From: an uncultured Mediterranea sp.
Lineage (GTDB): Bacteria > Bacteroidota > Bacteroidia > Bacteroidales > Bacteroidaceae
Length of the DNA stretch: 64,000 bases
Assembly (NCBI GenBank): GCA_945879145.1
Contig: CAMCUZ010000001.1
Span: forward strand, 49,170 to 113,169
Reading direction: 5' to 3'
In this document: piece by piece, positions 1-16,281 of the stretch
Position numbering within the stretch: position 1 is the first letter of the stretch
How the letters are laid out: every line of letters starts with the position of its first letter
Notes under the pieces: model-generated
Told to the model about the DNA's origin: nothing
Databases searched by the model: none
Seen by the model: only the letters and a program-made list of their open reading frames with translations
Made by a program: the position numbers and the translations under genes

Positions 1-344
1 CAACCTCCAGAGCTGTAGCGTGGTTTTACATTATAGAGGCAGTCATACCAGAACCAGCCACTACCCGAACCGTTCATGATATGGTCTTCACCCATCACGT
101 CGGCCATCAGGACATAAGCTGAGATACCGTAGCATTGGTGGGTGTTAGCCGTAGTGGACCATCCGGCCGTGTACATGGAACGGTAGATACCATTCAGAGG
201 AACCAATGCAGCATTGGCGTTGGTCATCAGACCGTCGCCCGACATCGAGTCGGTGGGGCTGGTCTCCAAGGCATCATCCGAGCAGGCCGAAAGCATGCCG
301 CAAGCCAGCAGACCGACAAACATATAGTTGAATATCTTTTTCAT
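1..344 (-). CDS. SusD-family surface lipoprotein (3' part beyond window edge)
   Basis: Only the first ~114 codons are inside the window; the gene runs off base 1. The N-terminus is a lipoprotein signal (MKKIFNYMFVGLLACGMLSAC) with lipobox LSAC and Cys21 as the probable lipidated residue. The following region (ETSPTDSMSGDGLMTNANAA, then LNGIYRSMY) is typical of SusD-like glycan- or peptide-binding lipoproteins, where the first TPR helix follows an N-terminal proline-rich stretch. It starts 37 bases after the stop of the minus-strand susC and is the usual SusD partner of it. Because that susC has no promoter in this orientation, this gene is probably not expressed either. Family assignment rests on the N-terminus and the susC neighbour. 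Confidence 0.85.
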   Translation of the reverse strand, partial: MKKIFNYMFVGLLACGMLSACSDDALETSPTDSMSGDGLMTNANAALVPLNGIYRSMYTAGWSTTANTHQCYGISAYVLMADVMGEDHIMNGSGSGWFWYDCLYNVKPRYSSGG

Positions 345-381
345 ACGTCTAATTTTCTGTTAATAGTTAATGGGTTTTCGT

Positions 382-3345
382 TTAGAAGTTCACCTCTACA
401 CCCACGGTCCAGGTCTTGTTGGGGGTGTAGCTGTAGTCTGTTGAACCGCTGAAATTGTATTGCGGGTCCATACCTTCCAGGTGGGAGAACAGGGCCAGAT
501 TGTCAACCGATGCAAATACGCGTACGGAGTTCATCTTGGCACTGCGCATCCAGCTCTGGGGCAGCTTGTAGCCCAGGGTGATGTTCTTGATGGCGAAGTA
601 TGAACCGTCCACCAGGTAGCGGTCGTTGGTAGTCGTCTTACCAGCCACCTCAATACGAGGTACGTCGGTTACGTCACCCGGCTTCTGCCAACGGCGCAGG
701 GCGTGCTTGTTCCAGTTATTGTTGTAGTACATGTTGTTCATCGAACCATTGTACAGACCGTCATACACCTTACCTCCGATAGAGTAGGTGGTCAGGATAG
801 AGAGGTCGAAGCCTTTCCAAGAGAAGTCGGTGCCGAGGCTACCATAGAGGTCGGGGATGCGGCTACCTAGGTAGTACTTGCTGGTAGAGGCCTTGCTGTA
901 GTCGCTGCTGATGCGTTCGTTGGTGATGTTGCCGTTTTCGTCCTTGTCATACACCCAGTAGAGCTGAGCACCGGTAGCGGGATCTACACCGGCCGACTTG
1001 GCCATGTAGAAGGTGTTGATAGGCATACCTTCCTTTATACTGTAGATACCGTTGATGATCTCAGGAGACTCGTTGGTGAGCTTCAGCACCTTGTTGCTTA
1101 CGGTAGAACCCATCCAGGTTACGTTCCAGGTGAAGTCTTTTGTCTTGACGGGTGTACCTCGCAATTCGAATTCCCAACCCGTGTTGCGCATATCACCCAC
1201 GTTGTCGTTGTAACCGCTAAAGCCTGTCGAAAGGGCCATGGGGTAGTTCAGCAGCATGTCGGTGGTCTTCTTGTTGTAGTACTCCACGTTCAGGTTCAAG
1301 CGCTGGTCGAAGAGGCTGGCTTCAATACCTACGTTGAGGTTGCCGTTCTTTTCCCAAGACACTTTCGTGTTCTCCAGCGTGCTTACCAAGCCACCAATTT
1401 GGTTGGAGTTGGCCCAGCTGAGGCTATAGAGACTCTGCCATGCATAGAGGCGGCCCAGTGAGTCGTTACCCTGCTCACCGTAGCTCAGCTTCAGTGAGAG
1501 GTTGTTTAGCCACTCCAGGTCAGCCAGGAAGGCTTCCTTAGAGATACGCCAGTTGGCACCTACCGACCAGAAGGAACCCCAGCGGTAATCCTTGTGGAAA
1601 CGAGAAGAACCGTCGCGACGGAACGAAGCGTCGAAGTAGTACTTCTCATCGTAGTTGTAGTTCACGCGGCCCAGCCAAGACTCAATGCGGTAGTTGTTGG
1701 TGTACGAGTCGGCATCATAGAGCGTTGTACCGGGGCGCAGTTCCAGGATACCATCTACCAGGTTGGTCTTACCTGCACTCAGGTATTCATATTTATAGGC
1801 ATAGAATTCATGACCAGCCAGCACGTTCACGCTGTGCTTGCCGAACGAGCGGTCGTAGGTAAGCAGTTGGTTGAAGGTGTAGCTCTGCATGCGGGTGTTG
1901 TACTTCATCAGCAGACCGCCTGCGTTGGCCTGGTTGCCATGGTACATGTTCATGTAGCTCTTCTGAAGCTGATTGCGATAATCCAGACCGAAGTTGAGGT
2001 TCAGCTTCAGGCCTTTGAAGATACCGAACTTGTCGGAGTCAGAGCCAAATACCATACCGGTACGTACGCTGGCAGCGTCATTCTTCACGTCTGCCTTATC
2101 GTCGAGCAGGCCACCCAGCGGGTTGAAGTCGTTGTAGCTACCCGGACGGCCTCCTTCACCATAGTCCAGCTGAGGCTGACCGCTGGCGTTCAGCAGGTTG
2201 TTGCCGTTCGCATCCTTGACGTAAACGGGGAACAGGGGAGATACGAACTGGGCTGAATACCATACATTCGACGTAGATGAGCCATCGTAGTCGCTGAAGT
2301 TCTGCATGGAGTGAGAGAGTGATACGTTCAGGTTGCCGCTGAACCATTCGTTTACCTTGGTATTCACGTTGGCACGTGCATTGTAGCGTTGGAAGGCGGT
2401 AGTCACCAGGATACCGTCTTCATTCAAGTAGCCTAAAGAGAACATATACTTGGTCTTTTCGTTACCACCGCTTACTGACAGCTGATGCTCGTGGCGCAGG
2501 GCATTATCGCGCAGCAGGGCATCAAGCCACTGCTCATCCCATGCTGACTGGGCGTCGGGACGTACATAGCCTGTCGTGGGGTCAATAATGTTATCCCATG
2601 TGTAGTTCTTGAAGGGATTGTATTGCTCACCGCCCAACGTGCTGCCTAAAGAAGCGCGTGCAGCAGCTTCGGCGTCGCTCCAGGCATAACCTGAGTTGAA
2701 GACGTAGTCATTACGCAAGGCTTCGTAGGAGAGCTGAACAAATTCTTTCTGGTCCAGCATGTCGTACGGGTCGAGTGCACGCGAAGCCCAACCTACTGTA
2801 GAACGCCACTGTACACTGGTCTTACCTTCTTTACCCTTCTTCGTCGTAATCATCACCACGCCGTTGGCACCACGTGAACCGTAAAGAGCACCTGCAGAGG
2901 CATCCTTCAGAATGGTCATCGACTCAATATCAGAGGGGTTGATGGAGCTGAGGCTACCGTCAAAGGGTACACCGTCAACCACATAGAGCGGGGTGCTCGA
3001 AGCGTTGATGGAGCCGTAGCCGCGGATGATGACGGATGAGCCAGATCCCGGCTGACCAGAACCAGATGTTGTCAATACGCCCGTGGCCTGACCTTCCAGA
3101 CCCTTCGTCACGTTGGTGATGGGGCGCGACTCCAGTTTCTTGTTGTCAATTGTAGAGGCTGAACCGGTAAACGACGACTTCTTCGCCGTACCGTAGGCAA
3201 CTACCATTACTTCATCAAGCAGCTCAGCATCAGGCTTCAGCATCACTCTCATATTGGCCTTAATAGCCACTTCAGCCTTCTGCATACCCACGAACGAAAC
3301 GACTAGAGTCTTCGCCGAACTTGGTATGGTACGATTGGAGTTGAT
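382..3345 (-). CDS. SusC-family TonB-dependent transporter, silent copy without 5' end
   Basis: The frame is open from an in-frame stop (TAA, complement of 3346-3348) to the stop at 382. It encodes the end of a carboxypeptidase-regulatory-like domain (PSSAKTLVVSFVGMQKAEV), the Ton-box region (LDEVMVVAYG), the plug (VDGVPFDG, LYGSRGANGVVMITTKKG) and the beta-barrel ending in aromatic ...VNF. The signal peptide and first ~66 residues found in the plus-strand susC are absent, and no promoter lies directly upstream. A weak GTG start is possible at 3291, but that product would have no export signal. Homology to the plus-strand susC begins abruptly at base 3326 and is in frame. I infer a silent phase-variable cassette that becomes a full 1046-residue transporter after inversion of 3327-7370. 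The alternative is a simple truncated pseudogene, but the otherwise intact frame argues against decay. Confidence 0.85.
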   Translation of the reverse strand: MNSNRTIPSSAKTLVVSFVGMQKAEVAIKANMRVMLKPDAELLDEVMVVAYGTAKKSSFTGSASTIDNKKLESRPITNVTKGLEGQATGVLTTSGSGQPGSGSSVIIRGYGSINASSTPLYVVDGVPFDGSLSSINPSDIESMTILKDASAGALYGSRGANGVVMITTKKGKEGKTSVQWRSTVGWASRALDPYDMLDQKEFVQLSYEALRNDYVFNSGYAWSDAEAAARASLGSTLGGEQYNPFKNYTWDNIIDPTTGYVRPDAQSAWDEQWLDALLRDNALRHEHQLSVSGGNEKTKYMFSLGYLNEDGILVTTAFQRYNARANVNTKVNEWFSGNLNVSLSHSMQNFSDYDGSSTSNVWYSAQFVSPLFPVYVKDANGNNLLNASGQPQLDYGEGGRPGSYNDFNPLGGLLDDKADVKNDAASVRTGMVFGSDSDKFGIFKGLKLNLNFGLDYRNQLQKSYMNMYHGNQANAGGLLMKYNTRMQSYTFNQLLTYDRSFGKHSVNVLAGHEFYAYKYEYLSAGKTNLVDGILELRPGTTLYDADSYTNNYRIESWLGRVNYNYDEKYYFDASFRRDGSSRFHKDYRWGSFWSVGANWRISKEAFLADLEWLNNLSLKLSYGEQGNDSLGRLYAWQSLYSLSWANSNQIGGLVSTLENTKVSWEKNGNLNVGIEASLFDQRLNLNVEYYNKKTTDMLLNYPMALSTGFSGYNDNVGDMRNTGWEFELRGTPVKTKDFTWNVTWMGSTVSNKVLKLTNESPEIINGIYSIKEGMPINTFYMAKSAGVDPATGAQLYWVYDKDENGNITNERISSDYSKASTSKYYLGSRIPDLYGSLGTDFSWKGFDLSILTTYSIGGKVYDGLYNGSMNNMYYNNNWNKHALRRWQKPGDVTDVPRIEVAGKTTTNDRYLVDGSYFAIKNITLGYKLPQSWMRSAKMNSVRVFASVDNLALFSHLEGMDPQYNFSGSTDYSYTPNKTWTVGVEVNF
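3311..3326 (-). repeat. Inverted repeat, left copy (likely crossover site)
   Basis: On the minus strand this reads TACCAAGTTCGGCGAA, identical to 7371-7386 on the plus strand. Toward 3345 there is no alignable homology with the other susC; away from it the two genes stay similar. A second identical 17-bp stretch, GTGGGTATGCAGAAGGC, lies 19 bases further into each gene (3275-3291 here), so the crossover could also fall there; both keep the reading frame. Confidence 0.8.
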
Positions 3346-3348
3346 TTA

Positions 3349-3745
3349 TAGTGAGATAGATTAATATCGCTTCGGGTCCGAGGAACTATGTTCCCCCGCG
3401 TCAGAAGTACCTCTCGCAAGGGGTAAGGCTATTTATTGTTACCCATTATGCTCTATTATTTGATGTCTAATTGACTTGTAATCAGTGTTTAACGTGGTAA
3501 GTTGCGTCCGAATTATACTACCCATTTGCACCCATTGTTTGAATTCCTGGTAACGTGTCAATCGAATTTACTGCTCTATATTCGATAAGAGTTCCAAGGA
3601 TTGGTAAACAAACGAAAGTATGATGACTTTTGACTCTACAATATTTGTGTAAGTTTATGGATAAATTCAAGAGAATAGTCCTCAAACTCTTGCTCTATAC
3701 GCTAAAATACCATGTAGATTATAAAATAATAGTGAATACAGCATT
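3349..3745. other. Non-coding DNA behind the silent susC
   Basis: About 400 bases without a convincing gene between the in-frame stop of the silent susC and the ATPase promoter region. It is AT-rich. A short inverted repeat GGGTAA/TTACCC lies at 3421-3444, and GGAAC/GTTCC near 3384-3396. In the opposite orientation of the invertible segment this DNA would sit just upstream of the plus-strand susC, where its stop codons and lack of a clear promoter would keep that copy off. Confidence 0.5.
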
Positions 3746-3834
3746 ATTATTGGCTATTATTACATGTTGATATAGCCAATAATGCGAATTAAAATTAATT
3801 ATTGGCTATTTTATTGGCATGATTGAACCAATAA
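3746..3834. promoter_or_regulatory. Cluster of ATTATTGGCTAT palindromic elements
   Basis: ATTATTGGCTAT at 3746-3757 is repeated in inverted form (ATAGCCAATAAT) at 3772-3783. It recurs as a 13-bp direct repeat at 3798-3810, and is followed by ATTGG (3813-3817) and an inverted CCAATAAT (3828-3835). Four related half-sites sit immediately upstream of the ATPase -7 box. They look like an operator array for a dimeric or oligomeric DNA-binding protein; the regulator is unknown. Confidence 0.6.
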
Positions 3835-3856
3835 TCAACAATTATATCTATCTTTG
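3823..3856 (+). promoter_or_regulatory. Candidate Bacteroidetes promoter for the ATPase gene
   Basis: A -7 box TATCTTTG (3849-3856) fits the Bacteroidetes TAnnTTTG consensus. A TTG at 3823-3825 lies 23 bases upstream, slightly far from the usual 19-21. The box overlaps a TTG codon at 3854 that would otherwise be taken as the gene start, so translation more likely begins at ATG 3884. Confidence 0.6.
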
Positions 3857-3883
3857 CAGAAGGAAATTTCAATTCGTAAGGGT

Positions 3884-5308
3884 ATGAAAGGAAACATCAT
3901 TGGACGTGAAATAGAGATAGAACTCTTATCCCGAATATATAGTTCAGGACAAGCGGAGTTTGTGGCTGTCTATGGTCGGCGGCGTGTAGGGAAGACCTTT
4001 TTGATACGTGAATACTTTGAGGGCAATCTTATTTTCCAAACGTCAGGTTTAGCAAATGCCAACACCGGTGAACAACTGAAGAATTTCTACTACACAATTA
4101 AGCGTTACGACCAGACGGTGAGCCGAGAGCCGGCCGACTGGTTAGAGGCGTTTGAAATGCTCATCAGTTATCTCACTTCGTTAGGTGAAGGGCGGAAAGT
4201 GCTGTTTTTTGACGAATTGCCATGGATGGATACCCAAGGTGCCAATTTTGTATCTGCCTTGGAACACTTTTGGAACGGCTGGGCATCAGCTCGCCGAGAT
4301 ATTGTATTGATTGTATGCGGTTCTGCTACATCGTGGATGATGAACAAACTGATCAACAACCATGGAGGTTTATATGGCAGGCTCACACGCAGAATCTCTC
4401 TCTCACCTTTCACGCTTGGCGAGGCCTCACAGTTCCTCGCTTCGCGGGGAATCATGTTTTCACCCTACGAAATCGCGGAGACCTATATGATTATGGGAGG
4501 GATTCCCTATTACTTGCAAATGCTTGATGCCAGGCTCAGCCTTGCCCAGAACGTGGACCGGCTCTTGTTTAATCCCAACGGAGAACTTTATGATGAGTTT
4601 GCCATACTCTACCGTTCTCTTTTTAATGACTCCGACTTGTACGTCAAGGTTGTGGATTGCCTGCACCGTAAGGGATATGGTATGACTCGCAATGAAATCT
4701 CGGCCGCCTCAGGAATCAAGTCAGGCAAGACAATGACCACCATACTTGAAAATCTTGTAGCCTGTGGATTTGTGAGAAAATACGTGAACTATGGTTGCAC
4801 AGAGCGGAAATCTTTATTTCAGCTCATTGACTTCTTTACCTTGTTCCATTTCCGATTCATGCGTGAGAGCTCCTTCCGCAACCTTAGTTTTTGGACCGGG
4901 CTTCAGCGGACACCTCGTTTTTATACCTGGGCAGGCATCTCTTTTGAGATACTTGTTACCACCCATGTGTCCCAAATCAAACAAAAGTTAGGCATTGCCG
5001 GAGTAGCCACCAGCGAATATGCTTGGCGAAGCCGAAAGGATCAAGATAGCGATGGAGCACAGATTGATCTGATTATCGAGAGAGCGGATAATACTTTGAA
5101 TATCTGTGAAATGAAATTCTCAGAGGGAGAATACGCCATCACTAAGGAGTATGAGAAATCTCTCCGACAGAAGGTCTCTACATTCATCGCTCAAACAAAG
5201 ACGAGAAAGTCCGTTCAGTTGACGTTGATATCAACCTACGGCATGAAACGAACTATATACTCTGGATGCATTCAGAACGAGGTCACGTTGGATGATCTGT
5301 TTGATTGA
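3884..5308 (+). CDS. AAA ATPase with C-terminal DUF234/PD-(D/E)XK-like domain
   Basis: A 474-residue protein of the archaeal-type ATPase (PF01637-like) group common in Bacteroidales. Walker A is GRRRVGKT (residues 31-38) and Walker B VLFFDE (106-111), followed by a winged-helix-like middle region. A C-terminal module has IDLII...NICEMKF, matching the D...ExK core of PD-(D/E)XK folds and the DUF234 region. ATG 3884 is chosen because the TTG ten codons earlier lies inside the promoter box. The cellular role of this family is not established. It sits alone inside the putative invertible segment, convergent with the recombinase, and its base composition looks lower in G+C than the neighbouring core genes. 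It may be passenger cargo, a defence or toxin-like factor, or unrelated to inversion. Confidence 0.85.
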   Translation: MKGNIIGREIEIELLSRIYSSGQAEFVAVYGRRRVGKTFLIREYFEGNLIFQTSGLANANTGEQLKNFYYTIKRYDQTVSREPADWLEAFEMLISYLTSLGEGRKVLFFDELPWMDTQGANFVSALEHFWNGWASARRDIVLIVCGSATSWMMNKLINNHGGLYGRLTRRISLSPFTLGEASQFLASRGIMFSPYEIAETYMIMGGIPYYLQMLDARLSLAQNVDRLLFNPNGELYDEFAILYRSLFNDSDLYVKVVDCLHRKGYGMTRNEISAASGIKSGKTMTTILENLVACGFVRKYVNYGCTERKSLFQLIDFFTLFHFRFMRESSFRNLSFWTGLQRTPRFYTWAGISFEILVTTHVSQIKQKLGIAGVATSEYAWRSRKDQDSDGAQIDLIIERADNTLNICEMKFSEGEYAITKEYEKSLRQKVSTFIAQTKTRKSVQLTLISTYGMKRTIYSGCIQNEVTLDDLFD

Positions 5309-5364
5309 AGTCTATTCTCGTTTGTCGTAGCCATTACCGCTGTATTACAGCGTCATACCCTTCA

Positions 5365-5410
5365 TTTCCCTTAGCGTACTAAGAGGATACTAAGAGGATG
5401 CTAAGGGAAA
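5365..5410. repeat. 11-bp perfect inverted repeat enclosing an 11-bp tandem repeat
   Basis: TTTCCCTTAGC (5365-5375) pairs with GCTAAGGGAAA (5400-5410). The 24-base interior holds ACTAAGAGGAT twice in tandem (5378-5388, 5389-5399). It lies between the 3' ends of the ATPase and the recombinase genes. It could be a transcription-termination hairpin or a protein-binding site such as an accessory recombinase site. Confidence 0.6.
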
Positions 5411-5445
5411 ACTATCTAAAAATGATAATTACTTTTAGATAGTTT
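5409..5445. terminator. Hairpin between convergent ATPase and recombinase genes
   Basis: AAACTATCTAAAA (5409-5421) and TTTTAGATAGTTT (5433-5445) form a perfect 13-bp stem with an 11-base loop. There is no long T-run after it, so it is only a candidate bidirectional terminator. It overlaps the end of the preceding palindrome by two bases. Confidence 0.45.
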
Positions 5446-5544
5446 AAGAGTAAAGGCAGACTCCGTCCGTTCTCTGTCGATTGTTCGCTCCGGAGGTGGG
5501 GCTAAGCGAAGGAAAAGCGGAGGAACAACGGAGGAAGGGTCTTC

Positions 5545-6732
5545 TCAGCGTGGTTGTTGCGGCATGCCGTGACTCTCCAAGTCTTGCACAATGGTTCGAT
5601 CCATCACTTCGGCGTAGATCTGCGTGGTGCGAACGCTGCGATGGCCCAGCAGACGCTGAACCGTAGTGATGTTGACACCGCTGTAGAGCAACAACGTGGC
5701 ATGCGTATGGCGGGCAGTGTGGAAGGAGATGTGTTTCTCTATACCCGCCAGCCGTGCCAGCCGAGAGAGCTGTTTATTAGCGTTCGAGTTGTTCTTTAGC
5801 TGGAAAAACAGCTTTTCATGGCCTGCGTAATCCACCAAAATCGTCACCGCCTTGCCGCCAAAGAGCAGATGAAGCGGACTCCGCACCGCGGTAGCAGTCT
5901 TCACCGAACGGTAACTGAGCCACCACTCATCGCCCCGATGCACTACGTTTTCCGCCGTCAAACTGCAAAAGTCGGAGTATCGCAACCCCGTGTAGCAACA
6001 GAAGAGGAAAGCATCCAGCGTATGACGCATCTCCTCTCGCAGTGGCTCCCGTCGGAGCTGTTCCATCGCATCAAGCTCCTCTGGCGAGAGGTAGGAGTGG
6101 TGAGTGGCTGTCATCTTGATCTGAAATTCGCGGAAGGGATTATCAGCAAACGGTATAAAGCGGCGCTTGACGGCCAAATTGACGTAGCGCATCAGGTGCT
6201 TCAAGTGCTTGGCAATCGTATTGGTGTGGTAACGACGTGAAACCAGGAAGGATTCAAAGCTCCGCAGATACTCCAGCGTCACATCATGAAACTGCACCGC
6301 TGGGCGGAAAGCCTTCAGCAACTGCCACGTGCTCTCATGGTTCACCCGTGTAGAGTGTCTGATTTCGGCCGTTTGTAGCTCCGACAGATAGATATCCATA
6401 AACGAATGAGGCAGCTTAGATCTCCTTATCGACGAGCGTAGCAGCTGGAGAGTCACTTGAAATCCATGCCGCCAGAGGGCCATCTCCATGCGCTCAATTT
6501 CCAGCAACTGCTCTTTCAGTTTCCAGTTCAGTTCCTTGGCCAAAGGATGATACACCACCCGTTGTTTCCTCTCATTCCATTGCGCAGGTTTCAGATAGAT
6601 GTGCGTAGAGAAGTAGCAACGCCTGCCGTAATGCAGAGCCTCGATTTGAACCAGAGCTTCGTCTTTGGCATTTAATCTATTTTTTCGGTTATAGACCAAC
6701 CTGTAAACAATTTTGTGTGTAAAAGCGTTCAT
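5545..6732 (-). CDS. Tyrosine recombinase (probable SusC-switch invertase)
   Basis: A 395-residue integrase of the Bacteroidetes type. It has an N-terminal Arm-binding region (about 1-100), a SAM-like core-binding domain (about 105-205) and a catalytic domain. The full catalytic set is visible: Arg251 (TGLRYSDF), Lys278 (RSVKTAT), His338 and Arg341 (HTARH), His364 (LLGHRS) and Tyr373 (QIYAEV). No transposon genes, excisionase or tRNA target accompany it. Instead it lies between two divergent susC genes with matching inverted repeats, the arrangement expected for a dedicated site-specific invertase. Such recombinases are known to invert SusC/SusD loci in B. fragilis; that this one does so here is inference. 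A role as a relic integrase of a lost element is the alternative. Confidence 0.9.
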   Translation of the reverse strand: MNAFTHKIVYRLVYNRKNRLNAKDEALVQIEALHYGRRCYFSTHIYLKPAQWNERKQRVVYHPLAKELNWKLKEQLLEIERMEMALWRHGFQVTLQLLRSSIRRSKLPHSFMDIYLSELQTAEIRHSTRVNHESTWQLLKAFRPAVQFHDVTLEYLRSFESFLVSRRYHTNTIAKHLKHLMRYVNLAVKRRFIPFADNPFREFQIKMTATHHSYLSPEELDAMEQLRREPLREEMRHTLDAFLFCCYTGLRYSDFCSLTAENVVHRGDEWWLSYRSVKTATAVRSPLHLLFGGKAVTILVDYAGHEKLFFQLKNNSNANKQLSRLARLAGIEKHISFHTARHTHATLLLYSGVNITTVQRLLGHRSVRTTQIYAEVMDRTIVQDLESHGMPQQPR

Positions 6733-7088
6733 ATAAATAAGATTTAGAGATTTGTATTATCATCCAAATAGGTTGTAAGGGATTAAACGCACCTATCCCT
6801 GCCAGAACAGGGAGCCATGCATCTCTACAAGCCACACAAGATAAAGCGCAAATTAGCAATATTGTGGGGTAAATAGCACAAATCGAGTCATTGGACCCCG
6901 ATTTATTTAACAATTTTGATTTAAAAAATGTGCAAATTCAGAATTGCATTATCGCTATATGACGTACAATTAGATATAAAAAGGAGATAAAATCGGAGCG
7001 ACTTGTCATAAAACAGATGTTTTGTAACATAAAACACGACATTTATATATCAAAATGGCATATTTTGAGGGTTTTTACGAAAAAGGCA
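6733..7088. other. Non-coding region between recombinase and susC
   Basis: AT-rich intergenic DNA of about 350 bases upstream of both the minus-strand recombinase and the plus-strand susC. A short hairpin TCCCTG/CAGGGA is at 6796-6813. No convincing gene is seen. It probably holds the recombinase promoter and any regulatory sites for the switch, but no clear -7 box was found for the recombinase. Confidence 0.5.
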
Positions 7089-7118
7089 TTGCGATATTTA
7101 TATTTATTAATATATTTG
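7089..7118 (+). promoter_or_regulatory. Promoter of the active susC operon
   Basis: TTG (7089-7091), a 19-base spacer, then TATATTTG (7111-7118) match the Bacteroidetes -33/-7 consensus very well. The start codon is 56 bases past the box. The promoter lies inside the putative invertible segment, so it would be delivered to the other susC after inversion. Confidence 0.8.
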
Positions 7119-7174
7119 CATTTCGTTAGAGTAAAGAGACAATTAATGTAAAGTTTAACTTTAAGAGAGAATTT

Positions 7175-10100
7175 ATGAAAAGAAAATTAATGCTGTTATT
7201 GGCCTGTCTTTTTGTAGGAATAGGCCTTGTAACTGCCCAGACTCAGAGAGTTACAGGTGTTGTAATTTCTGAAGAAGATGGGCAACCAGTGATCGGCGCT
7301 TCTGTATTGGTAAAGGGTACACAGCTGGGTACCATTACCGGTGTAGATGGTGATTTTACGTTACCCAATGTACCAAGTTCGGCGAAAACTATCATCGTTT
7401 CTTTTGTGGGTATGCAGAAGGCGGAAGTAGCCATCTCAGCTCGTATGAAGGTGAGCTTGAAGCCTGACGCTGAGCTTCTTGACGAAGTAATGGTGGTGGC
7501 TTTCGGTACGGCCAAGAAGTCGGCCTTCACCGGTTCGGCCAAAGTGCTGGGCAATGAGAAGCTGGAACAATCGCAGGTGTCGAGCGTGACCAATGCATTG
7601 GCTGGTGCTGTGCCGGGCGTAACCCTGACCTCTTCTAATGGTGCTCCGGGTGCCTCTTCTTCTATCCAGATCCGTGGTTTCGGTTCACTGAACGCTGGCA
7701 ACAGCCCGCTGATTATTGTGGATGGTGCTCCTTACTCTGGTGACATCAGCAACCTGAACCCCAACGACGTAGAGTCAATGACGGTGCTGAAGGATGCTGC
7801 TTCTAACGCCCTGTATGGTGCGCGTGGTGCCAACGGTGTGGTTATCATCACGACTAAGAAGGCTAAGAGTGGTGACGCTGTGGTATCGTTTGATGCCAAG
7901 TGGGGTGCCAACAGCAACGCCCTGAAGCGTTACAACGTGATTAAGGATCCCGCTCAGTACTACGAAATGCACTACGGTGCCTTGAACCGTTATTATATGG
8001 ATAATGGCTCCTCTGCAGAAGAGGCTTGGCAGAAGGCTAACGCCAACCTGTTCGGTCCTGCCGGTAGCGGTGGTGTAGGTTACAATGTATATACTATTCC
8101 CGAAGGTGAAGTGCTGATTGGTCTGAACGGTAAGCTGAACCCCAACGCTACGCTGGGTCGCACCGTAACTTACAAGGGTCAGGACTACTACGTTACTCCT
8201 GATGATTGGGATGAAATCGGTACGCGCACGGGGCTCCGTCAGGAGTACAACTTCTCTGTAAGTGCTGCCAACGACCGCTCTTCGTTCTATGCTTCTCTCG
8301 GTTACCTGGAGAACGAAGGTATCACCGAGAATTCTGACCACAAGCGTCTGACGGCTCGTCTGCGTGCTGACTATCAAGCCAAGAAGTGGATGAAGATTGG
8401 TGGTAACATGTCATACGCTCGCTTCGATTTCAACTCGCTGAGCAACAACGGTTCTAGCACCTCATCAGGTAACATCTGGGCCTTCACTACCCAGCTGGCT
8501 CCTATCTACCCCGCTTACATCCGTACGGCAGATGGTAACGTCATGGTGGATGCTAACGGTATCAATGTGATGGACTATGGTAACGGCAAGAACGCCGGTA
8601 TGTCTCGCCCCTGGATTTCGGACGCTAACCCCATCCAGGACGTGAAGCTGAACACCAACAACTCTGAGGGTAACGCCTTCTACGGTAATGGTTTCGTTAA
8701 CTTCAACTTTGTGGAGGGTCTGACCATCACGTTGAATGGTACTTACAACCTCGATGAGACCCGTGAGACCTACGTCTATAACCCCTACTACGGTCAGTTT
8801 GACAGCACGGGTGGTACGGTCAGCAAGGGTCACTACCGCACGTACGAATACAACCTGCAGCAGTTGATCAACTACTCACGTACTTTTGGTAAGCACAATG
8901 TAGATGTCATGTTGGGTCACGAATATTCAGATTATCGTTACTATGCACTCTCTGCCAGCAAGAGCAAGATGTTCTCGCAGAGCAACAAGGAGTTGAATGG
9001 TGCTGTGGTTGACGGTCAGAGCGCTGGTTCTTACAAGAGCCGTACCAACTGGGAAGGTTACTTCGGTCGCTTGCAGTATAACTACGATGAAAAGTACTTC
9101 GCTTCGGCTTCTCTGCGTCGCGATGCCTCTTCGAAGTTCCACCCCGATTACCGTTGGGGTACCTTCTGGTCAGTAGGTGGTGCTTGGTTGATGAACAAGG
9201 AAAACTGGTTCAATGTAGATTGGATCCAGGAACTGAAGCTCAAGGCTTCTTACGGTATCCAGGGTAACGATAACATCGGTACCTACCGCTATACAGACGT
9301 ATTTGACATCGTGAACTCAGCAGGTAACGTAGGTACTTCGTTCGCTGCTAAGGGTACGAAGGATATCACGTGGGAAACCAACGGTAACTTCAACGTAGGT
9401 GCTGAATTCCAGCTCTTCAAGCGCATCAGCGGTAGCTTGGAATACTATTACCGCAAGACCACTGACATGCTCTTCAGCTTCTCGGTTGCTCCCTCGCTGG
9501 GTTACTCCAGCTACTACGACAACATCGGTGACATGTACAACACTGGTTTCGAATTGGATATGAACGTCAACATCTTGAAGCAGAAGAACCTGCAGTGGGA
9601 TGTGAACTTCAACATCTCTACGCTGAAGAACAAGATTACCAAGCTGCACCCTGACAAGATGGTGGCTACGCAATATACAGCCGATGGCACGGAATACAAG
9701 GGTTACAATAGCGGTAGCTTCTTCATCTCGGAAGACCTCTCTATTTACTCTTGGTATCTGAAGGAATTTGCCGGTGTAGATGCAGAGACTGGTGAATCAA
9801 TGTGGTATAAGAACATCAAGGACGAAAAGGGTAACATCACGGGTCGTGAAACGACTAAGACCTACGCTGATGCTGACTACTACATTACGGAGGAGACGAC
9901 CCTGCCTGATGCATTCGGTGGATTCGGTACGAAGATCAATGCTTACGGCTTCGACTTCGCCATCAACTTCACCTATCAGCTCGGTGGTAAGCAGTACGAT
10001 AACACCTATGCTACCTTCATGTCATCACCCACGAGCTCTGCCGGTTACAACTTCCATGCTGACCTGCTCAACTCTTGGACTGAAGAGAACCGCAACAGCA

Positions 10101-10393
10101 ACATTCCTCGCTTCCAGTGGGGTGACACCTACAGTGCAGGTGGCTCAACTCGTTTCTTGACTAGCTCAAGCTACCTCAACATTCAGAACATCAACTTCGG
10201 TTACACTCTGCCTTCTCGTCTGACCAAGAAGCTCGACATCAATAGTGTACGCGTTTACCTCACTGCAGAGAACGTGTTCTACTGGTCAAAGCGTCAGGGC
10301 TTCGACCCCCGTCAGTCGTTCAGCGGCGGTGCTAACGCTACCAATTACGCTCCGATGCGCACCATCTCAGGCGGTATCTCACTGAAGTTCTAA
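7175..10393 (+). CDS. SusC-family TonB-dependent outer-membrane transporter (expressed copy)
   Basis: A complete 1072-residue transporter. The signal peptide is MKRKLMLLLACLFVGIGLVTAQ. A carboxypeptidase-regulatory-like domain covers about residues 26-100 (VTGVVISEEDGQPVIGASV). The Ton-box region LDEVMVVA is near 102-109. The plug follows (IIVDGAPYSG, ALYGARGANGVVIITTKKA), then a long barrel ending in GGISLKF with the terminal Phe used in outer-membrane assembly. With SusD it should form a lidded pore importing oligomeric nutrients, driven by TonB. The substrate is unknown, though a peptidase downstream hints at peptides or glycoprotein. The putative crossover repeat falls at codon 66, inside the regulatory-like domain, so the secretion signal and promoter are separable from the specificity-determining barrel. 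Confidence 0.97.
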   Translation: MKRKLMLLLACLFVGIGLVTAQTQRVTGVVISEEDGQPVIGASVLVKGTQLGTITGVDGDFTLPNVPSSAKTIIVSFVGMQKAEVAISARMKVSLKPDAELLDEVMVVAFGTAKKSAFTGSAKVLGNEKLEQSQVSSVTNALAGAVPGVTLTSSNGAPGASSSIQIRGFGSLNAGNSPLIIVDGAPYSGDISNLNPNDVESMTVLKDAASNALYGARGANGVVIITTKKAKSGDAVVSFDAKWGANSNALKRYNVIKDPAQYYEMHYGALNRYYMDNGSSAEEAWQKANANLFGPAGSGGVGYNVYTIPEGEVLIGLNGKLNPNATLGRTVTYKGQDYYVTPDDWDEIGTRTGLRQEYNFSVSAANDRSSFYASLGYLENEGITENSDHKRLTARLRADYQAKKWMKIGGNMSYARFDFNSLSNNGSSTSSGNIWAFTTQLAPIYPAYIRTADGNVMVDANGINVMDYGNGKNAGMSRPWISDANPIQDVKLNTNNSEGNAFYGNGFVNFNFVEGLTITLNGTYNLDETRETYVYNPYYGQFDSTGGTVSKGHYRTYEYNLQQLINYSRTFGKHNVDVMLGHEYSDYRYYALSASKSKMFSQSNKELNGAVVDGQSAGSYKSRTNWEGYFGRLQYNYDEKYFASASLRRDASSKFHPDYRWGTFWSVGGAWLMNKENWFNVDWIQELKLKASYGIQGNDNIGTYRYTDVFDIVNSAGNVGTSFAAKGTKDITWETNGNFNVGAEFQLFKRISGSLEYYYRKTTDMLFSFSVAPSLGYSSYYDNIGDMYNTGFELDMNVNILKQKNLQWDVNFNISTLKNKITKLHPDKMVATQYTADGTEYKGYNSGSFFISEDLSIYSWYLKEFAGVDAETGESMWYKNIKDEKGNITGRETTKTYADADYYITEETTLPDAFGGFGTKINAYGFDFAINFTYQLGGKQYDNTYATFMSSPTSSAGYNFHADLLNSWTEENRNSNIPRFQWGDTYSAGGSTRFLTSSSYLNIQNINFGYTLPSRLTKKLDINSVRVYLTAENVFYWSKRQGFDPRQSFSGGANATNYAPMRTISGGISLKF
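7371..7386 (+). repeat. Inverted repeat, right copy (likely crossover site)
   Basis: TACCAAGTTCGGCGAA, identical in inverted orientation to 3311-3326. It covers the end of codon 66 to codon 71 of the active susC. The second shared 17-bp block is at 7406-7422. Confidence 0.8.
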
Positions 10394-10420: not shown

Positions 10421-12055
10421 ATGAAAAAAGCATTGAAAATATTCTCCCTTTTTGCAGCTACGGCCTTGCTGGCCAGCAGCTGTATCGAAGAGACGTTCCC
10501 TGAATCGGGTAGCGCTACCTCCGAGCAGGTGGGTGCTTCTTCTACGGCACTCGAAGCTGCATTGAACGGTATTCCCTCGCAGATGGCACAGGGTTACTAT
10601 GTGTATGGTAGCCAGACGCACGAAACCGACATGGCCTATCCCATGTACATGATTGCTCTGACCGAAATGCTGGGTGATATGTATCCCCTGGGTTCCAACT
10701 CCGGTTACGACTGGTACCGCAACTACAATACGTGCGACCGTGAATTCGGTGAAAAGAGCTACTTCGCTTACCTCCCCTGGTTCACTCTCTACCGTTTCAT
10801 CAAGGCAGCCAACGACGTGATTGCTGCTGTAGATTTCGAGACGGCTCCCGATAACCTGAAGGGCCTGGCCTCTGTGGCCTACGCTTGCCGCGCTTTCGAC
10901 TACTACATGCTGATGGTGCTCTTTGAACCCGTAGAAACCGGTTATACCGATATCTCGGCTGTGAAGGGGTTGACTGTACCTATTGTAACTGAGGCTACTA
11001 CGGGTGACGATGCCAAGCAGAATGCCCGTGCTACGCACGAAGAGATGGTGAAGTTCATCCTCTCTGACCTCGACAAGGCCGAAGCGGGTCTGGCTAACTA
11101 TACGCCTTCTTCCAAGAACTTCCCCGACCTTGCTGTAGTGTATGGTATCAAGGCCAAAGTTTATCTGTGGGACGAGGATTATGCTAAGGCTGCTGAATAT
11201 GCTGCTAAGGCTATTGAGACCGCTAAGGCCGACAAGGCCGTGCCTATGACCAAGGCTCAGCTGACTGACCTAAAGACCGGCTTTAACACGGCTACTGCAG
11301 GTTGGATGTGGTACATCCACTACAGCGCTGAGACGATGGGTAACCTCTGCAACTTCACCGGCTGGATGAGTGGTGAGGCTGACTGGGGTTACAGCTCGCT
11401 GACCCTCCCTGGTATCGACCGTGCCCTCTACGAGAAGATGTCAGACACCGACTACCGCAAGCCTCAGTTCCTGGATCCCATGAAGTATGGTTTCTACGAC
11501 TACCAGACGGTTCGTGACCAGGCTTACATTGAGGAAGCTCCTGCCTATCTCTCGCTGAAGTTCCGCTGCGTAAACGGTGACTGGGAAACCTACTCAGTAG
11601 GTGCTGCCTGCGACGTTCCCGTGATGCGTATAGAAGAGATGTACCTCATCGAGGCTGAGGCTGTAGGTGCTTCACAGGGCGTAGCTGCCGGTGTAGAGAA
11701 ACTGAACAGCTTCATGAAGAACTACCGCGACCCTGCTTACAATTACGCAGGTTCTGACCTCCGTGAGTTCCAGCTCGAAGTGTTGACCCAGATGCGAATC
11801 GAGTTCTGGGGTGAGGGTAATGCCTTCCCCTCGGCTAAGCGTCTGCGTCCCGCAATCTACCAGAACTACGCCGGTACGAATGCACCTGAGACCATCTTCA
11901 AGATTAACTTCCCGCAGGGTAAACCCAACTGGAACCTGGTGATTCCTACCTTCGAGACCCAGTCGAATCCTGTTCTGGCTGCTCAGAACAACCCCAACCC
12001 CACGGGTACCTTCAAGGCTCCTGCTGAAGAAGGCAAGTTCTGCGAGAAGAAATAA
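10421..12055 (+). CDS. SusD/RagB-family nutrient-binding lipoprotein
   Basis: A 544-residue lipoprotein starting 27 bases after susC. The signal ends at lipobox LASSC with Cys21. The body has the helical SusD architecture: early TPR segments (TALEAALNGIPSQMAQGYY, WFTLYRFIKAANDVIAAVDF, YACRAFDYYMLMVLFEP) and the late motif MRIEEMYLIEAEA...MRIEFWGEGNAFPSAKRLRP, characteristic of the family's C-terminal region. It should cap the SusC pore at the cell surface and bind the incoming substrate. It is part of the active operon and would be switched off if the segment inverts. Confidence 0.95.
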   Translation: MKKALKIFSLFAATALLASSCIEETFPESGSATSEQVGASSTALEAALNGIPSQMAQGYYVYGSQTHETDMAYPMYMIALTEMLGDMYPLGSNSGYDWYRNYNTCDREFGEKSYFAYLPWFTLYRFIKAANDVIAAVDFETAPDNLKGLASVAYACRAFDYYMLMVLFEPVETGYTDISAVKGLTVPIVTEATTGDDAKQNARATHEEMVKFILSDLDKAEAGLANYTPSSKNFPDLAVVYGIKAKVYLWDEDYAKAAEYAAKAIETAKADKAVPMTKAQLTDLKTGFNTATAGWMWYIHYSAETMGNLCNFTGWMSGEADWGYSSLTLPGIDRALYEKMSDTDYRKPQFLDPMKYGFYDYQTVRDQAYIEEAPAYLSLKFRCVNGDWETYSVGAACDVPVMRIEEMYLIEAEAVGASQGVAAGVEKLNSFMKNYRDPAYNYAGSDLREFQLEVLTQMRIEFWGEGNAFPSAKRLRPAIYQNYAGTNAPETIFKINFPQGKPNWNLVIPTFETQSNPVLAAQNNPNPTGTFKAPAEEGKFCEKK

Positions 12056-12086: not shown

Positions 12087-14114
12087 ATGAAATCATTCAA
12101 GCATATATGGGGATTGGCCGTAGCCATGCTTGCTGCTACCACCCTTTATTCCTGCTCTGAGGATGAGCCTACCTATACCCCGGCTGACCCTGAAGGCGTT
12201 AAGGCTCATATCACCTTTGCAGGTAGTGAGTCGGAGACCTTCGAAGTTGAACCTGGTACTACAGGCTTCTCTCTCACGCTCCAACGTCCTGAGGACGAAG
12301 CTGCCAACGCTGAAACTGTTACCCTCACTGTAACGGGCAACCAGGGTAATGTATTCAATTGCCCCGCTACTGTAGATTTCGCTGCCGGTGAGACTACCAA
12401 GAGTTTCAATGTAACCGTCAGTGGTGCTGAAGAAGGTGTTTATTATGCCTTAAACGTGGTAGCCAATGGCAACCAGAGCGATTACACCCAAGGTCTTCGC
12501 CAGAAGAATGTATCGTTTGCTGTCATGAAGTGGGAGAGCATCGGTATGGGTTACTGGGTGGACAACATCATGTGTACTCCTTTCAGTGTAGATAAGCTGA
12601 CGCTTGCTGTAGAAGTAGAAAAGGCTGTAACTTCCACTTCTACCCGTTTCCGCTTCACGAGTCCTTATGAATCAGTGAATACCGATGTAGTACTGATTGG
12701 TGGTAAGGAGGAATATCCTGCCTATGTCGGCTATCCGTACAACGGGCCCGATGATATCTGCTCTACCGGCAACATGTTCGTGATTATCTGCGATGCTAAG
12801 GGCAATGCTAACTTGCAGGATGTAGAAATCGGTCTCGACTGGGGCCATGGTAAGGTGATTGCTGGTATGATCAAGGACGGTCAATCTTTGGGTAATGTAA
12901 GCGACGCCAAGGCTAAGGCTGGTACCTATAGTGCAGCTAAAGGTACTGTTTCATTCCCCGTTTTGACCATGTTTATGAGCATGCCTTCATGGAACACCGT
13001 AGCTTGTACTTCTGCAGCTACCCTGTATCTAGGTGATGATGCTTTCCTGAATGCTCAGGTGAAGGAAGTGGATTATGTGAACGACTTCCAGTGGAACAGC
13101 GTAGAAGGCGCTCTCGGTACCTTTGTATCTACAGCTGCTGACGACTCTTGGATTCAAGATGTAGAGGCAGCGGTTCGCGTTTCAGATGGTGGAGTAGAAG
13201 AGGGTCTCTATCGCTTCCCCGACCTGTTCGTTGAGGGTTATCCTATCGTCTTCAATATGACGCTGGATAATGGCGCCTATATGATTTCTACTCCCAAGGT
13301 TCAGCCTACTGGTATCGTTGCTTTGGGCGGCGATATGATTTACACCGAAATCAAGAGCGGTAAGTGTGGTGAAGACATGCAGATGACGCTCAACATGGCT
13401 TTCTATACCATGGATGACAAGGGCAATAAGAAGGTGGACTTCGGCACGATGGCCGAAGAGTTCCAGTGGGGTGTAACTGGTCTGTCGGTAAATGATCTGA
13501 TTGGACAGAACATGGCCAACTATGTGGGTATCTGGAAGGCTCCTTTCATTAACCTGAAGGATGGTTCTGCAGGCAATAGCTACGTTCGAGTTACTCCGTC
13601 GGCTGATTATGAAGGTTGCCTGGTTATCGAAGGACTCTCGGCACTGGATGGTTACAATGATGCTGTAATTGCTGAGTGGAGTAATCAAACTGGTCTGGTT
13701 ACTTTGGGCGCTCAGTGGGCAGAAGACCTGTCTGGTTACAACATGATCTTCATGGGCTATAATCCTTTCGAAGGCTATTACACGACAAAGAGCACGATGA
13801 TAGGTGGTTTGACAAAGGACGGTATTTTTGCTTTCCTGAATAATCCAGAGAATGAAGATCCCATCCAAACCATGCGTTATTTCGCTTATCAAGATGGTGC
13901 TGTAGCAGGTGCCTTCTCTAGCTACGTTCCCTATCCGATGGAGTGGGAGTATGCTCAGGCTGCTGGTGCTCAGGGTCTCAAGGTTTCTGCTGAATTCAGC
14001 GCTGAGGTGAATGGTGTAATTAAGAAGGTTAATCGTCAGCTTAAGTCCTCCATCAAGGGACAAGCGGTTGCTCCCCGTCAGTTGATTGGTAGCAATGTGG
14101 AAATGGTCTATTAA
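12087..14114 (+). CDS. Uncharacterised surface lipoprotein of the susCD operon
   Basis: A 675-residue protein with lipobox LYSC (Cys23). Residues about 38-145 look like a beta-sandwich of the Calx-beta or similar type (ITFAGSESETFEVEPG...VTLTVTGNQG...VDFAAGETTKSFNVTV). The rest is rich in beta-strand-like, aromatic and Gly-containing segments with no catalytic motif that I recognise. It follows susD by 31 bases and ends before a good terminator, so it belongs to the same transcript. Proteins at this position are often surface substrate-binding proteins (SusE/F-like or SGBP-like). That role is inferred from position only. Confidence 0.85.
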   Translation: MKSFKHIWGLAVAMLAATTLYSCSEDEPTYTPADPEGVKAHITFAGSESETFEVEPGTTGFSLTLQRPEDEAANAETVTLTVTGNQGNVFNCPATVDFAAGETTKSFNVTVSGAEEGVYYALNVVANGNQSDYTQGLRQKNVSFAVMKWESIGMGYWVDNIMCTPFSVDKLTLAVEVEKAVTSTSTRFRFTSPYESVNTDVVLIGGKEEYPAYVGYPYNGPDDICSTGNMFVIICDAKGNANLQDVEIGLDWGHGKVIAGMIKDGQSLGNVSDAKAKAGTYSAAKGTVSFPVLTMFMSMPSWNTVACTSAATLYLGDDAFLNAQVKEVDYVNDFQWNSVEGALGTFVSTAADDSWIQDVEAAVRVSDGGVEEGLYRFPDLFVEGYPIVFNMTLDNGAYMISTPKVQPTGIVALGGDMIYTEIKSGKCGEDMQMTLNMAFYTMDDKGNKKVDFGTMAEEFQWGVTGLSVNDLIGQNMANYVGIWKAPFINLKDGSAGNSYVRVTPSADYEGCLVIEGLSALDGYNDAVIAEWSNQTGLVTLGAQWAEDLSGYNMIFMGYNPFEGYYTTKSTMIGGLTKDGIFAFLNNPENEDPIQTMRYFAYQDGAVAGAFSSYVPYPMEWEYAQAAGAQGLKVSAEFSAEVNGVIKKVNRQLKSSIKGQAVAPRQLIGSNVEMVY

Positions 14115-14242: not shown

Positions 14243-16015
14243 ATGATGAAACAAAAACTATTCCTCTGTATGCTGGCGGTGATGGCATGCTTCACGGCCT
14301 GCTCCAGTGATGACCCTACCATCACCCTATTGACGAACGATGCTTCGGGTGCGCCGGTTACACAGATTGATCTTGGTCCTAACAAGGACTCAAAGGGCAG
14401 TATCGTCTTTGAGAGCTCTGACGAATGGGAGGCCAAGGCTACGCTGAGTGATGGTTCGGTGTGCGACTGGCTTACCGTAAGCCCTGCACAGGGTAAGGCT
14501 GGTAAAGTCTCTGTCTCTTTCAAGGCCAACTCATCGAACATGACGGGTGATCCCCGTACCGCTACCTTGACCCTCTATGGCGCTGGCAAGGCATTGCAGA
14601 ACCTGCATGTAACCCAGGCTAAGATGGACTTCATCGAACTGGATAAGACGGAGTATTCCATTTCCGCAGAGGGGGGCGATGTCGATATCCTTTTTACCGG
14701 TAGCCTTCCTGCAAACGGGAGGGTGGGAGCTGCTTACTCCACCTCGCTGACCGGATGGGCTCAACTGGGCTGGTTGCCTACCACCCGCGGTCTGCAACAT
14801 GGTGGATTGCGCGTCAAGGTGGATGCCAATCAGTTCCTTCACGAACGTCAGGCGCAGCTGCAGCTGGTTATTCTTGATGCTAACGAGCAAGTGATCATGG
14901 AGACGGATTTCATTAACCTGACGCAAGCGGCTGGTCAGGAACTCACTTCAACTGACATGAGTAAGGATGGTGAGGTGAAGGTGCTCCAGACGCACACCAA
15001 AGGTAATGCTGGCATTCCGCTGGTTATCCTTGGTGATGGCTTTGTGGATACACAGGTCGCTTCGGGTTATTATGACGAGTGCATCCAACGCGGTATAGAT
15101 AATTTCTTCAGCGAAGAGCCCTACGCTTCGCTGCGTGAATACTTCGATGTGTGGCAGGTTACGGCAGTTTCTCCTTCAAATGTGATGGATGGTACGCACG
15201 CAACGGCCATTTCATCCTATCCTACGGGAGAGGGTACGTTGATTGTAGGGGATGATAAGAAGGCACAGGCCTACGCCCAGCAGGTCACTGAACTAAAATC
15301 TATGGATAGACTTGCTGAAGCGACTATCCTGGTGGTGATGAATACGGATGCCTACGCCGGAACCTGTTATTTCGGCTTCTCAACCGATGGGAAAACCTTC
15401 GTTGACCTGGCCATCGGTTATGCCCCGATGATTTATGGTCCGCGCCACGAGGAGTGCCGCCAAGTCATGGTACACGAAAATGCGGGTCATGGTTTCGCTA
15501 AACTGGGTGATGAGTATGGTTACGCCAGCAACGGCAAGGCTTCTCAGTCGGATATTGATGAGCTGCTTTTCTTTCAAGAAATGGGTTGGATGATCAATGT
15601 CTCTTCTACCAGTAACCCTGAACTGGTGCCTTGGAGTCACTTCCTTAAGGACAGTCGCTATGCCAACGATGGAAACGGCTATCCGCTCTCTGTCATCGAA
15701 GGGGGATATACCTTCACGCAGGGTATCTGGAAACCCACGGAAGAGAGTATGATGAACAGCAATCAAAACGGCTTCAACGCACCAAGCCGCGAGGCGATTT
15801 ACAAGCGTATCATGAGCATGGCCAACGGTTCTCCCTGGCAGTACGACTACGAAGAGTTTGTGAAGTTCGACCTGGCTCACCTGCCTGTGAACAGCGCGAA
15901 GACCCGTGCACTGCAGATGAAGCAAGATGGCTTTGGCATCCTTGACAAGGAGGAACTGAAGAAGCGTCCCCGCTTCCACGAGCCCGTCTTTGTGAACCTG
16001 CAGCTAAACAGATAA
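14243..16015 (+). CDS. M64-family (IgA-peptidase-like) zinc metallopeptidase lipoprotein
   Basis: A 590-residue lipoprotein (lipobox FTAC, Cys20). Residues about 30-130 resemble a BACON-type beta domain (WEAKATLSDGSVCDWLTVSPAQGKAG). The C-terminal half is the catalytic domain: VHENAGHGFAKLGDEY (His411, Glu412, His416) fits the HExxxHxxxxLxDEY zinc signature of family M64, preceded by the family's LVILGDGF-like and ECIQRGIDNFFSEEPY segments. M64 members cleave proteins including IgA in Clostridium, and surface-anchored relatives are common in gut Bacteroidetes. Its place after the susCD-lipoprotein genes suggests it releases peptides or trims glycoproteins for import. Either of two adjacent ATGs (14243, 14246) may be the start. 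Confidence 0.9.
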   Translation: MMKQKLFLCMLAVMACFTACSSDDPTITLLTNDASGAPVTQIDLGPNKDSKGSIVFESSDEWEAKATLSDGSVCDWLTVSPAQGKAGKVSVSFKANSSNMTGDPRTATLTLYGAGKALQNLHVTQAKMDFIELDKTEYSISAEGGDVDILFTGSLPANGRVGAAYSTSLTGWAQLGWLPTTRGLQHGGLRVKVDANQFLHERQAQLQLVILDANEQVIMETDFINLTQAAGQELTSTDMSKDGEVKVLQTHTKGNAGIPLVILGDGFVDTQVASGYYDECIQRGIDNFFSEEPYASLREYFDVWQVTAVSPSNVMDGTHATAISSYPTGEGTLIVGDDKKAQAYAQQVTELKSMDRLAEATILVVMNTDAYAGTCYFGFSTDGKTFVDLAIGYAPMIYGPRHEECRQVMVHENAGHGFAKLGDEYGYASNGKASQSDIDELLFFQEMGWMINVSSTSNPELVPWSHFLKDSRYANDGNGYPLSVIEGGYTFTQGIWKPTEESMMNSNQNGFNAPSREAIYKRIMSMANGSPWQYDYEEFVKFDLAHLPVNSAKTRALQMKQDGFGILDKEELKKRPRFHEPVFVNLQLNR

Positions 16016-16216: not shown

Positions 16217-16248
16217 TTTGCTTTTTCTCTCAGCTTGCACTATCTTTG
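16217..16248 (+). promoter_or_regulatory. Promoter of hflX
   Basis: TTTG (16217-16220), a 20-base spacer and TATCTTTG (16241-16248). The TTG inside the box (16246) is in frame with hflX but is not a plausible start. Confidence 0.75.
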
Positions 16249-16281
16249 TCCCCAATAATTTGGAATAGAAAGGCTAACAAT

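Follow-up and report, generated by a model that had tools for sequence, protein, structure and literature searches.

The window analysed here, 64,000 nucleotides from an uncultured Mediterranea sp. (GenBank assembly GCA_945879145.1, contig CAMCUZ010000001.1, positions 49,170 to 113,169), carries between two susC genes a segment that is very probably a DNA switch. The segment, at positions 3311 to 7386, would move one promoter and one coding head between two SusC bodies, driven by the tyrosine recombinase encoded within it. In the proposed mechanism, this recombinase would invert the segment at an 11-bp site within the susC coding sequence, and the promoter, the signal peptide and the first part of the N-terminal domain would pass from one SusC body to the other. 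Such flips would be occasional, a single promoter and head serving either SusC/SusD operon, and each orientation would be on for one receptor gene. The two sites, the joins that stay in frame both ways, the single promoter pattern with its head, the opposite arrangement and the architecture shared with relatives are read directly in the DNA. We infer that the local recombinase inverts the segment in living cells and that each cell makes one receptor, with its SusD and accessory proteins. The principal features are as follows.

3311 to 7386, no strand: putative invertible segment, inverted repeats included (4.08 kb); its inversion in silico is in frame, and the public protein P0001 matches the product
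3311 to 3326, minus strand: predicted left recombination site, a 16-bp repeat consisting of TACCA and AGTTCGGCGAA, with the 11-bp core at 3311 to 3321
7371 to 7386, plus strand: predicted right recombination site, with the core AGTTCGGCGAA at 7376 to 7386, codons for SSAK
7089 to 7118, plus strand: promoter-like TTG-N19-TATATTTG, a match to the Bacteroides-type pattern
7175 to 7386, plus strand: putative mobile head, comprising a signal peptide (judged by eye) and the first part of the N-terminal domain (residues 1 to 70)
7175 to 10393, plus strand: SusC(+), full length, presumably the receptor expressed in the present orientation (TIGR04056, 783.5 bits)
382 to 3321, minus strand: body of SusC(-), headless and starting at the core, with no promoter pattern upstream and no signal peptide (TIGR04056 from profile position 52)
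5545 to 6732, minus strand: tyrosine recombinase, the likely agent of inversion (Phage_integrase, SAM-like and arm-binding domains)

Two receptor genes around one predicted promoter and one head

The two susC genes that flank the segment both point outward, and both belong to the SusC/RagA family, with TIGR04056 scores of 783.5 and 782.8 bits against a curated cut-off of 368.25. SusC(+) carries the N-terminal domain PF13715 at residues 26 to 107; the core starts at its base 202, in codon 68, and spans codons 68 to 71. SusC(-) is missing the first 67 codons and is open over the remainder (969 codons). Its frame opens just 8 codons ahead of the core, and this stretch is therefore too short for a signal peptide. 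The two copies of the 16-bp repeat TACCAAGTTCGGCGAA, at 3311 to 3326 (minus strand) and 7371 to 7386 (plus strand), are identical and form the end of a 170-nt inverted repeat (81% matched) made by the two genes. The homology of the susC genes thus begins at the repeat, as an earlier interpretation of the letters alone (hereafter the sequence-only reading) had proposed. The window holds no further copy of the repeat at 2 mismatches or fewer, and neither did 100 shuffles; genome-wide there is one extra copy with 2 mismatches, on contig 58, which has no SusC similarity.

The sequence-only reading had also held that the plus-strand gene has a promoter and a signal peptide, that the minus-strand gene lacks both, and that the only such signals lie between the two. 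This was borne out: the pattern at 7089 to 7118 is the single match to TTG-N17-22-TAnnTTTG on either strand of 3311 to 7386, and no match occurs on the minus strand of 3301 to 3700, directly upstream of SusC(-). In the survey of relatives described below, the same pattern preceded headed genes in 69 of 78 cases and headless genes in 1 of 101 (2.3 and 1.9 in mononucleotide shuffles), counted over 310 nt per gene that ended 210 nt before the core for headed genes and at the core for headless ones.

When the segment is inverted in silico, the head joins the SusC(-) body without a stop or a frameshift, yielding a receptor of 1046 aa, and SusC(+) becomes headless. Since the core is read as Ser-Ser-Ala-Lys codons, an exchange there would not scar the protein. 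The crossover falls within the PF13715 domain of SusC and divides it, and both bodies presumably must suit one and the same half of this domain. Because the recombinase gene and the head form one block, the recombinase would always lie beside the active receptor.

The recombinase and its family

The recombinase is complete and belongs to the tyrosine recombinases, with a catalytic domain (PF00589) matching at 1.6e-25 as one of three domains, in agreement with what the sequence-only reading had stated. Residues R251, K278, H338, R341, H364 and Y373 are invariant in an alignment of 20 homologues, and we take them to be the Arg-Lys-His-Arg-His-Tyr catalytic set of these enzymes. A profile built from 20 sequences, with relatives counted at E values of 1e-60 or better, revealed the family in 95 of the 158 genomes examined from the genus, which is taken to be Bacteroides from the names of close homologues. 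Among 301 genomes sampled from the bacterial family, 48 had relatives, 17 of these 48 in the genus. The 95 genomes contain 102 recombinase places, two broken copies being counted once each, of which 101 loci were surveyed, the window included and one locus (G137:C67) left out.

SusC genes were sought within 4.5 kb of the recombinase and classed as headed or headless from how far the frame stays open ahead of the core, with set thresholds; six SusC frames fell in neither class. There was room on both sides of the recombinase in 79 loci; in 63 of them the SusC on the 5' side of the recombinase is headed and that on the 3' side is headless, and the two genes point away from it. The reverse arrangement was found in none of the 79, under a scoring that counted "headed" only at the 5' side. 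SusC was present in all 11 loci with room only 5' (headed in 9) and in 8 of the 11 with room only 3' (headless in all 8, with no SusC in the other 3). A scan of another contig set with the recombinase returned three distant or partial loci, which were not used. In 23 of the 63 loci the stretch examined carries two or three headless bodies, and some members of the family may be multi-way. Possible examples are L095 (genome G072) and L094 (G162), with two or three headless SusC genes beside the headed one. Two recombinase copies in opposite directions were observed in L114/L115 (G098, about 10 kb apart) and in L092/L093 (G076).

These data bear on the possibility that the switch is real and yet driven in trans by another recombinase, as Tsr0667 does in Bacteroides fragilis, with the local gene as a passenger. 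Bacteroides DNA invertases that act on distant regions are known (PMC4747536). The window's own genome, moreover, has 5 recombinase matches at E values of 0.001 or better, itself included. We nevertheless regard this explanation as unlikely. The local gene is fixed beside the head, with a gap between the recombinase match and the open frame of the head of 411 to 415 bp at the quartiles of the 63 loci. Sites in SusC genes of the window's genome (92.9% complete) are only the two of this locus; a third site (contig 65, L195) lies outside SusC genes, and the reversed control also gave one match. Six genomes with a recombinase and no SusC beside it (G030, G067, G068, G070, G123 and G180) were searched with the 20-bp site, allowing up to 3 mismatches. 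This gave 8 matches, all with 3 mismatches, versus 6 in the reversed control. The 11-bp core is disrupted in seven of the 8 and retained in one (G068, contig 90, L187), outside any SusC, and none of the 8 has a SusC in its three-kb surroundings. Remote receptor targets in trans were thus not supported (0 of 8 matches by a SusC), other kinds of target being possible. The distribution is in keeping with a site that travels with receptor pairs, which does not in itself prove that the recombinase cuts it.

The opposite state in relatives

The public protein P0001, which represents 26 member sequences (one contig, 18.6 kb), agrees with the predicted inverted product at 1034 of 1046 residues (99%), and the head is identical at 72 of 72. 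Two further proteins, both named B. fluxus at the source, one headed (P0036) and one headless (P0114), agree at all 979 body residues. The locus nearest by recombinase sequence (L159 in genome G151, 59% identity) holds the silent body of the window in the headed state. Positions 7 to 3326 of the window match it in reverse at 89%, across the headed gene and into the beginning of the gene next to it, and this match ends at 3326, the last base of the repeat; the head module (7046 to 7540) matches L159 in the direct sense. In another pair of loci, L047 and L102, with recombinases identical in the tree alignment, 8,424 bases (99.0% identity) are reversed relative to a 98.2% identical switch, and the breakpoint is the first base of the core. 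The other receptor bodies of this pair differ, so it represents a flip plus a replaced body. More generally, 16 of the 27 body clusters of at least 90% identity that span several loci contain both headed and headless members, and 22 of 32 do so at 70%. In the sequences of both states, alternative susC genes are joined to one predicted expression signal by inversion, as in SusC/SusD inversion systems.

Between the window and G151, hflX is 98% identical and the recombinase only 59%. The enzyme of the switch appears to evolve, or to be exchanged, much faster than the DNA around it.

A fixed address with either orientation

In the window's genome, the marker genes place the switch between marC on the left (in L037) and hflX on the right.

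16246 to 17541, plus strand: hflX-type GTPase, the right flank of the locus (GTP-binding domains)

Among the hflX matches listed, 65 genomes have the recombinase and hflX together on a contig, and in 61 of these the two are at most 30 kb apart. The identities of heads, recombinases and bodies, like those of the sites, rest on the 63 loci that fit the architecture. Their median pairwise values (1953 pairs) are 0.84 for heads, 0.63 for recombinases and 0.32 for headed bodies, and recombinase identity correlates with head identity (0.31) and not positively with body identity (-0.06), the pairs not being independent. In most testable genomes the switch behaves like a fixed socket by hflX, with one head and exchangeable, largely unrelated bodies. 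It is rather probable that it is a resident of this marC-hflX address across the genus, with a conserved block of recombinase, promoter and head, unrelated bodies swapped in and out, an orientation effectively random in each lineage and a site within the receptor codons.

Orientation could be read wherever a locus had both a headed gene and a flank marker, which gave 53 loci from 51 genomes. In 27 of them the head points towards hflX and in 26 towards marC, with one locus of conflicting markers (L049) kept by majority. On the recombinase tree, which has weak support at 17 of its 48 inner branches and places the window on a long branch, orientation changes 21 times versus a mean of 18 in shuffles, and therefore has no phylogenetic inertia. 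The sequence-only reading had named a single orientation in all relatives as the outcome that would speak against switching; both orientations occur among them. Its central proposal of a switching locus gains support from this 27:26 split, from P0001 at 99% and from the headed copy of the silent body in L159.

The locus might instead be a frozen relic, with an inversion in the past and the present orientation fixed in the lineage. Recombinases without receptor genes do exist. In six loci of six genomes (L048, L113, L117, L118, L119 and L153) the recombinase is at the usual address with no SusC, and there the switch appears to have been lost and the enzyme retained; L101, L103 and L167 are also without SusC, and are off the usual address or could not be placed. 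The layout is also kept by loci with a broken recombinase. For the window, a relic is nonetheless quite improbable: its recombinase is intact with invariant catalytic residues, the two 16-bp copies are still identical, a protein 99% identical to the predicted product occurs in the other state, and orientation lacks phylogenetic inertia.

Several observations weigh against the proposed switch and have to be set beside the evidence above. Sixteen of the 79 loci do not fit the architecture within 4.5 kb (9 with no SusC, 5 with a headed one only and 2 with two SusC genes of other types). Loci L058, L165 and L166 keep the architecture with a broken recombinase, so that architecture alone is no proof of present activity. 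Four of the 65 genomes (G179, G064, G084 and G105) have the recombinase more than 30 kb from hflX among the hflX matches listed. P0001 is a product of metagenome assembly, in which a misjoin at the repeat is possible, and it differs from the predicted product at 12 residues, which makes it the protein of a related strain.

The predicted recombination site

The site shared across the family is an 11-bp core, AGTTCnGCnAA, within the coding sequence. Between headed genes and the headless genes of their own locus, mean identity is 0.32 at the base before the core and 0.98 to 1.00 over the next 11 bases. The wobble positions 5 and 8 of the core, which differ from species to species, agree in 63 of 63 own-locus pairs, versus 0.40 and 0.54 by chance (1000 shuffled pairings), and at position 11 the agreement falls to 0.81. 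The first codon of the core is AGT in 177 of 179 genes, a codon that makes up 14.2% of the 14,803 serine codons in the bodies, and this bias indicates a constraint on the DNA itself. As the site lies inside receptor codons, the DNA site and the protein it encodes probably limit each other's variation. Ahead of the core, sequence on the headed side is conserved, being coding, and little is conserved on the headless side; recognition therefore most likely rests on the core plus the body side. A search of phage records gave two short matches. One of them, MT836126.1 (an unannotated "Bacteriophage sp." from human stool), matches positions 7292 to 7519 of the window, the head and core region, at 71%, and may represent inverting DNA of bacteria that was deposited under a phage label.

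An alternative without site-specific recombination is ordinary gene conversion, or homologous recombination, between susC paralogues whose inverted homology arose by chance; in its favour, the two genes share 170 nt at 81% identity, repeat included. This explanation is highly unlikely given the precision of the site. In 43 of the 63 loci the identity sets in at one and the same base, the identical stretch may span no more than 11 bp, which is too short for efficient homologous exchange, and AGT predominates at the first core codon far above its share of serine codons. Finally, SusC(-) lacks a start region, a signal peptide and a promoter, as a 5'-truncated dead duplicate would, but its 969 open codons score close to the intact gene and P0001 and L159 contradict the idea by carrying the same body with a head, leaving it a negligible chance.

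Relation to known inversion systems

The source study of the Tsr0667 SusC/SusD shufflon of Bacteroides fragilis is reportedly that of Nakayama-Imaohji (2009). The study of Porter (2020) on nutrient-receptor shufflons of B. thetaiotaomicron may concern the same subtype as ours, in which the 5' ends of susC-like genes are reportedly swapped next to a recombinase, and part of the family may already have been described in it.

The sequence-only reading had likened the locus to the recombinase-switched SusC/SusD loci of B. fragilis. The comparison is right in kind, but the arrangement is unlike the descriptions of Tsr0667 and of "region EE" cited below. Tsr0667 acts on three SusC/SusD clusters and nine other regions (PMC4747536, PMC11852207). 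Tsr0667 and the proposed switch have in common a site-specific invertase, SusC/SusD pairs, and an inversion that sets, or here would set, which outer-membrane pair is expressed. There, one invertase serves several clusters through shared sites, whereas here we found one locus, two SusC-associated sites in a 92.9% complete genome and the recombinase inside the segment. In region EE of B. fragilis NCTC 9343, the repeats overlap the susC start codon and the region lies downstream of an invertible promoter (PMC5729914). Inverted repeats at the front of susC/ragA homologues likewise put alternative pairs behind one promoter there; in our locus, by contrast, the site is about 200 nt inside the gene (core at base 202, codon 68) and the head that would move is coding sequence.

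Other systems share single elements with the proposed switch. The nutrient-receptor shufflons of B. thetaiotaomicron are similarly phase-variable, and one of them shifted after phage exposure (PMC12548429). The Rci shufflon of plasmid R64 also has an invertase that picks between alternative coding segments (PMC11852207), but it swaps C-terminal segments, whereas here a common N-terminal head would be moved between whole bodies. At capsule loci of Bacteroides, a recombinase flips invertible promoters between on and off; there the promoter moves alone, and here it would move together with a coding head and either orientation would be active for one gene. Nanopore sequencing of B. xylanisolvens revealed recombination hotspots, many near sus-type genes (PMC8042965), and orientations near susC/susD differ in inflammatory bowel disease (PMC10939037); related literature includes a review (PMC12632263) and two further papers (PMC12118408, PMC13114119). 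In the openly accessible literature, subscription papers being outside the scope, we found no account of the address shared across the genus, of orientations divided evenly, or of the 11-bp core within coding sequence. The locus is apparently a variant of the known SusC/SusD inversion systems and a resident switch of the genus.

Possible cargo and significance

The two receptors probably differ in cargo or uptake specificity. Their best matches among solved structures are RagA, a peptide importer, for SusC(+) and 8aa4 ("SusC homolog") for SusC(-). A peptide cargo, to which the RagA match and the M64 peptidase in the operon could have pointed, was not adopted, SusC(-) being closest to 8aa4. A cell could gain by changing the nutrients it takes up, by evading phages or antibodies that exploit the receptor, or in both ways. 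In gut Bacteroides, nutrient receptors determine the diet of the cell and can be targets of phages or of immunity, and a switch conserved at one address offers a uniform handle on them, with one primer scheme per species, one recombinase and one 11-bp site. With this site, "truncated" SusC genes can be annotated as silent alternative receptors rather than pseudogenes. When and why gut bacteria change receptors becomes directly testable across the genus.

Neighbouring genes

Downstream of each SusC lie a SusD gene and accessory genes, and the segment holds one more gene, unlisted in the sequence-only reading.

10421 to 12055, plus strand: SusD partner of SusC(+) (SusD-like_3 and SusD_RagB)
12087 to 14114, plus strand: 675-aa protein of the SusC(+) operon, no Pfam match
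14243 to 16015, plus strand: M64 peptidase with a BACON domain, last of the SusC(+) operon (Peptidase_M64)
3 to 344, minus strand: start of the SusD partner of SusC(-), which continues beyond the window (L037:8806-10344)
3854 to 5308, plus strand: ATPase gene of the ATPase_2 family (domain match), inside the segment, with a likely ATG at 3884

To the left of the window, the SusC(-) side continues with genes for a 290-aa protein and for what is left of an M64 peptidase. This remnant of 127 aa (L037:7369-7752) forms the end of the silent operon, and the peptidase of the active operon is intact, at 590 aa. The M64 peptidase seems to have been lost on one side of the switch.

The ATPase gene sits between the recombinase and the headless SusC. 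By tblastn at 1e-10 it was found in 1 of the 103 sequences searched, the window alone, and a role as an accessory of the switch was rejected on its absence from the other 102. For the same reason it looks like a recent insertion, one that would flip along with the segment. At the marC edge of the locus lies another ATPase gene of AAA type (L037:6058-7272), from the same broad family.

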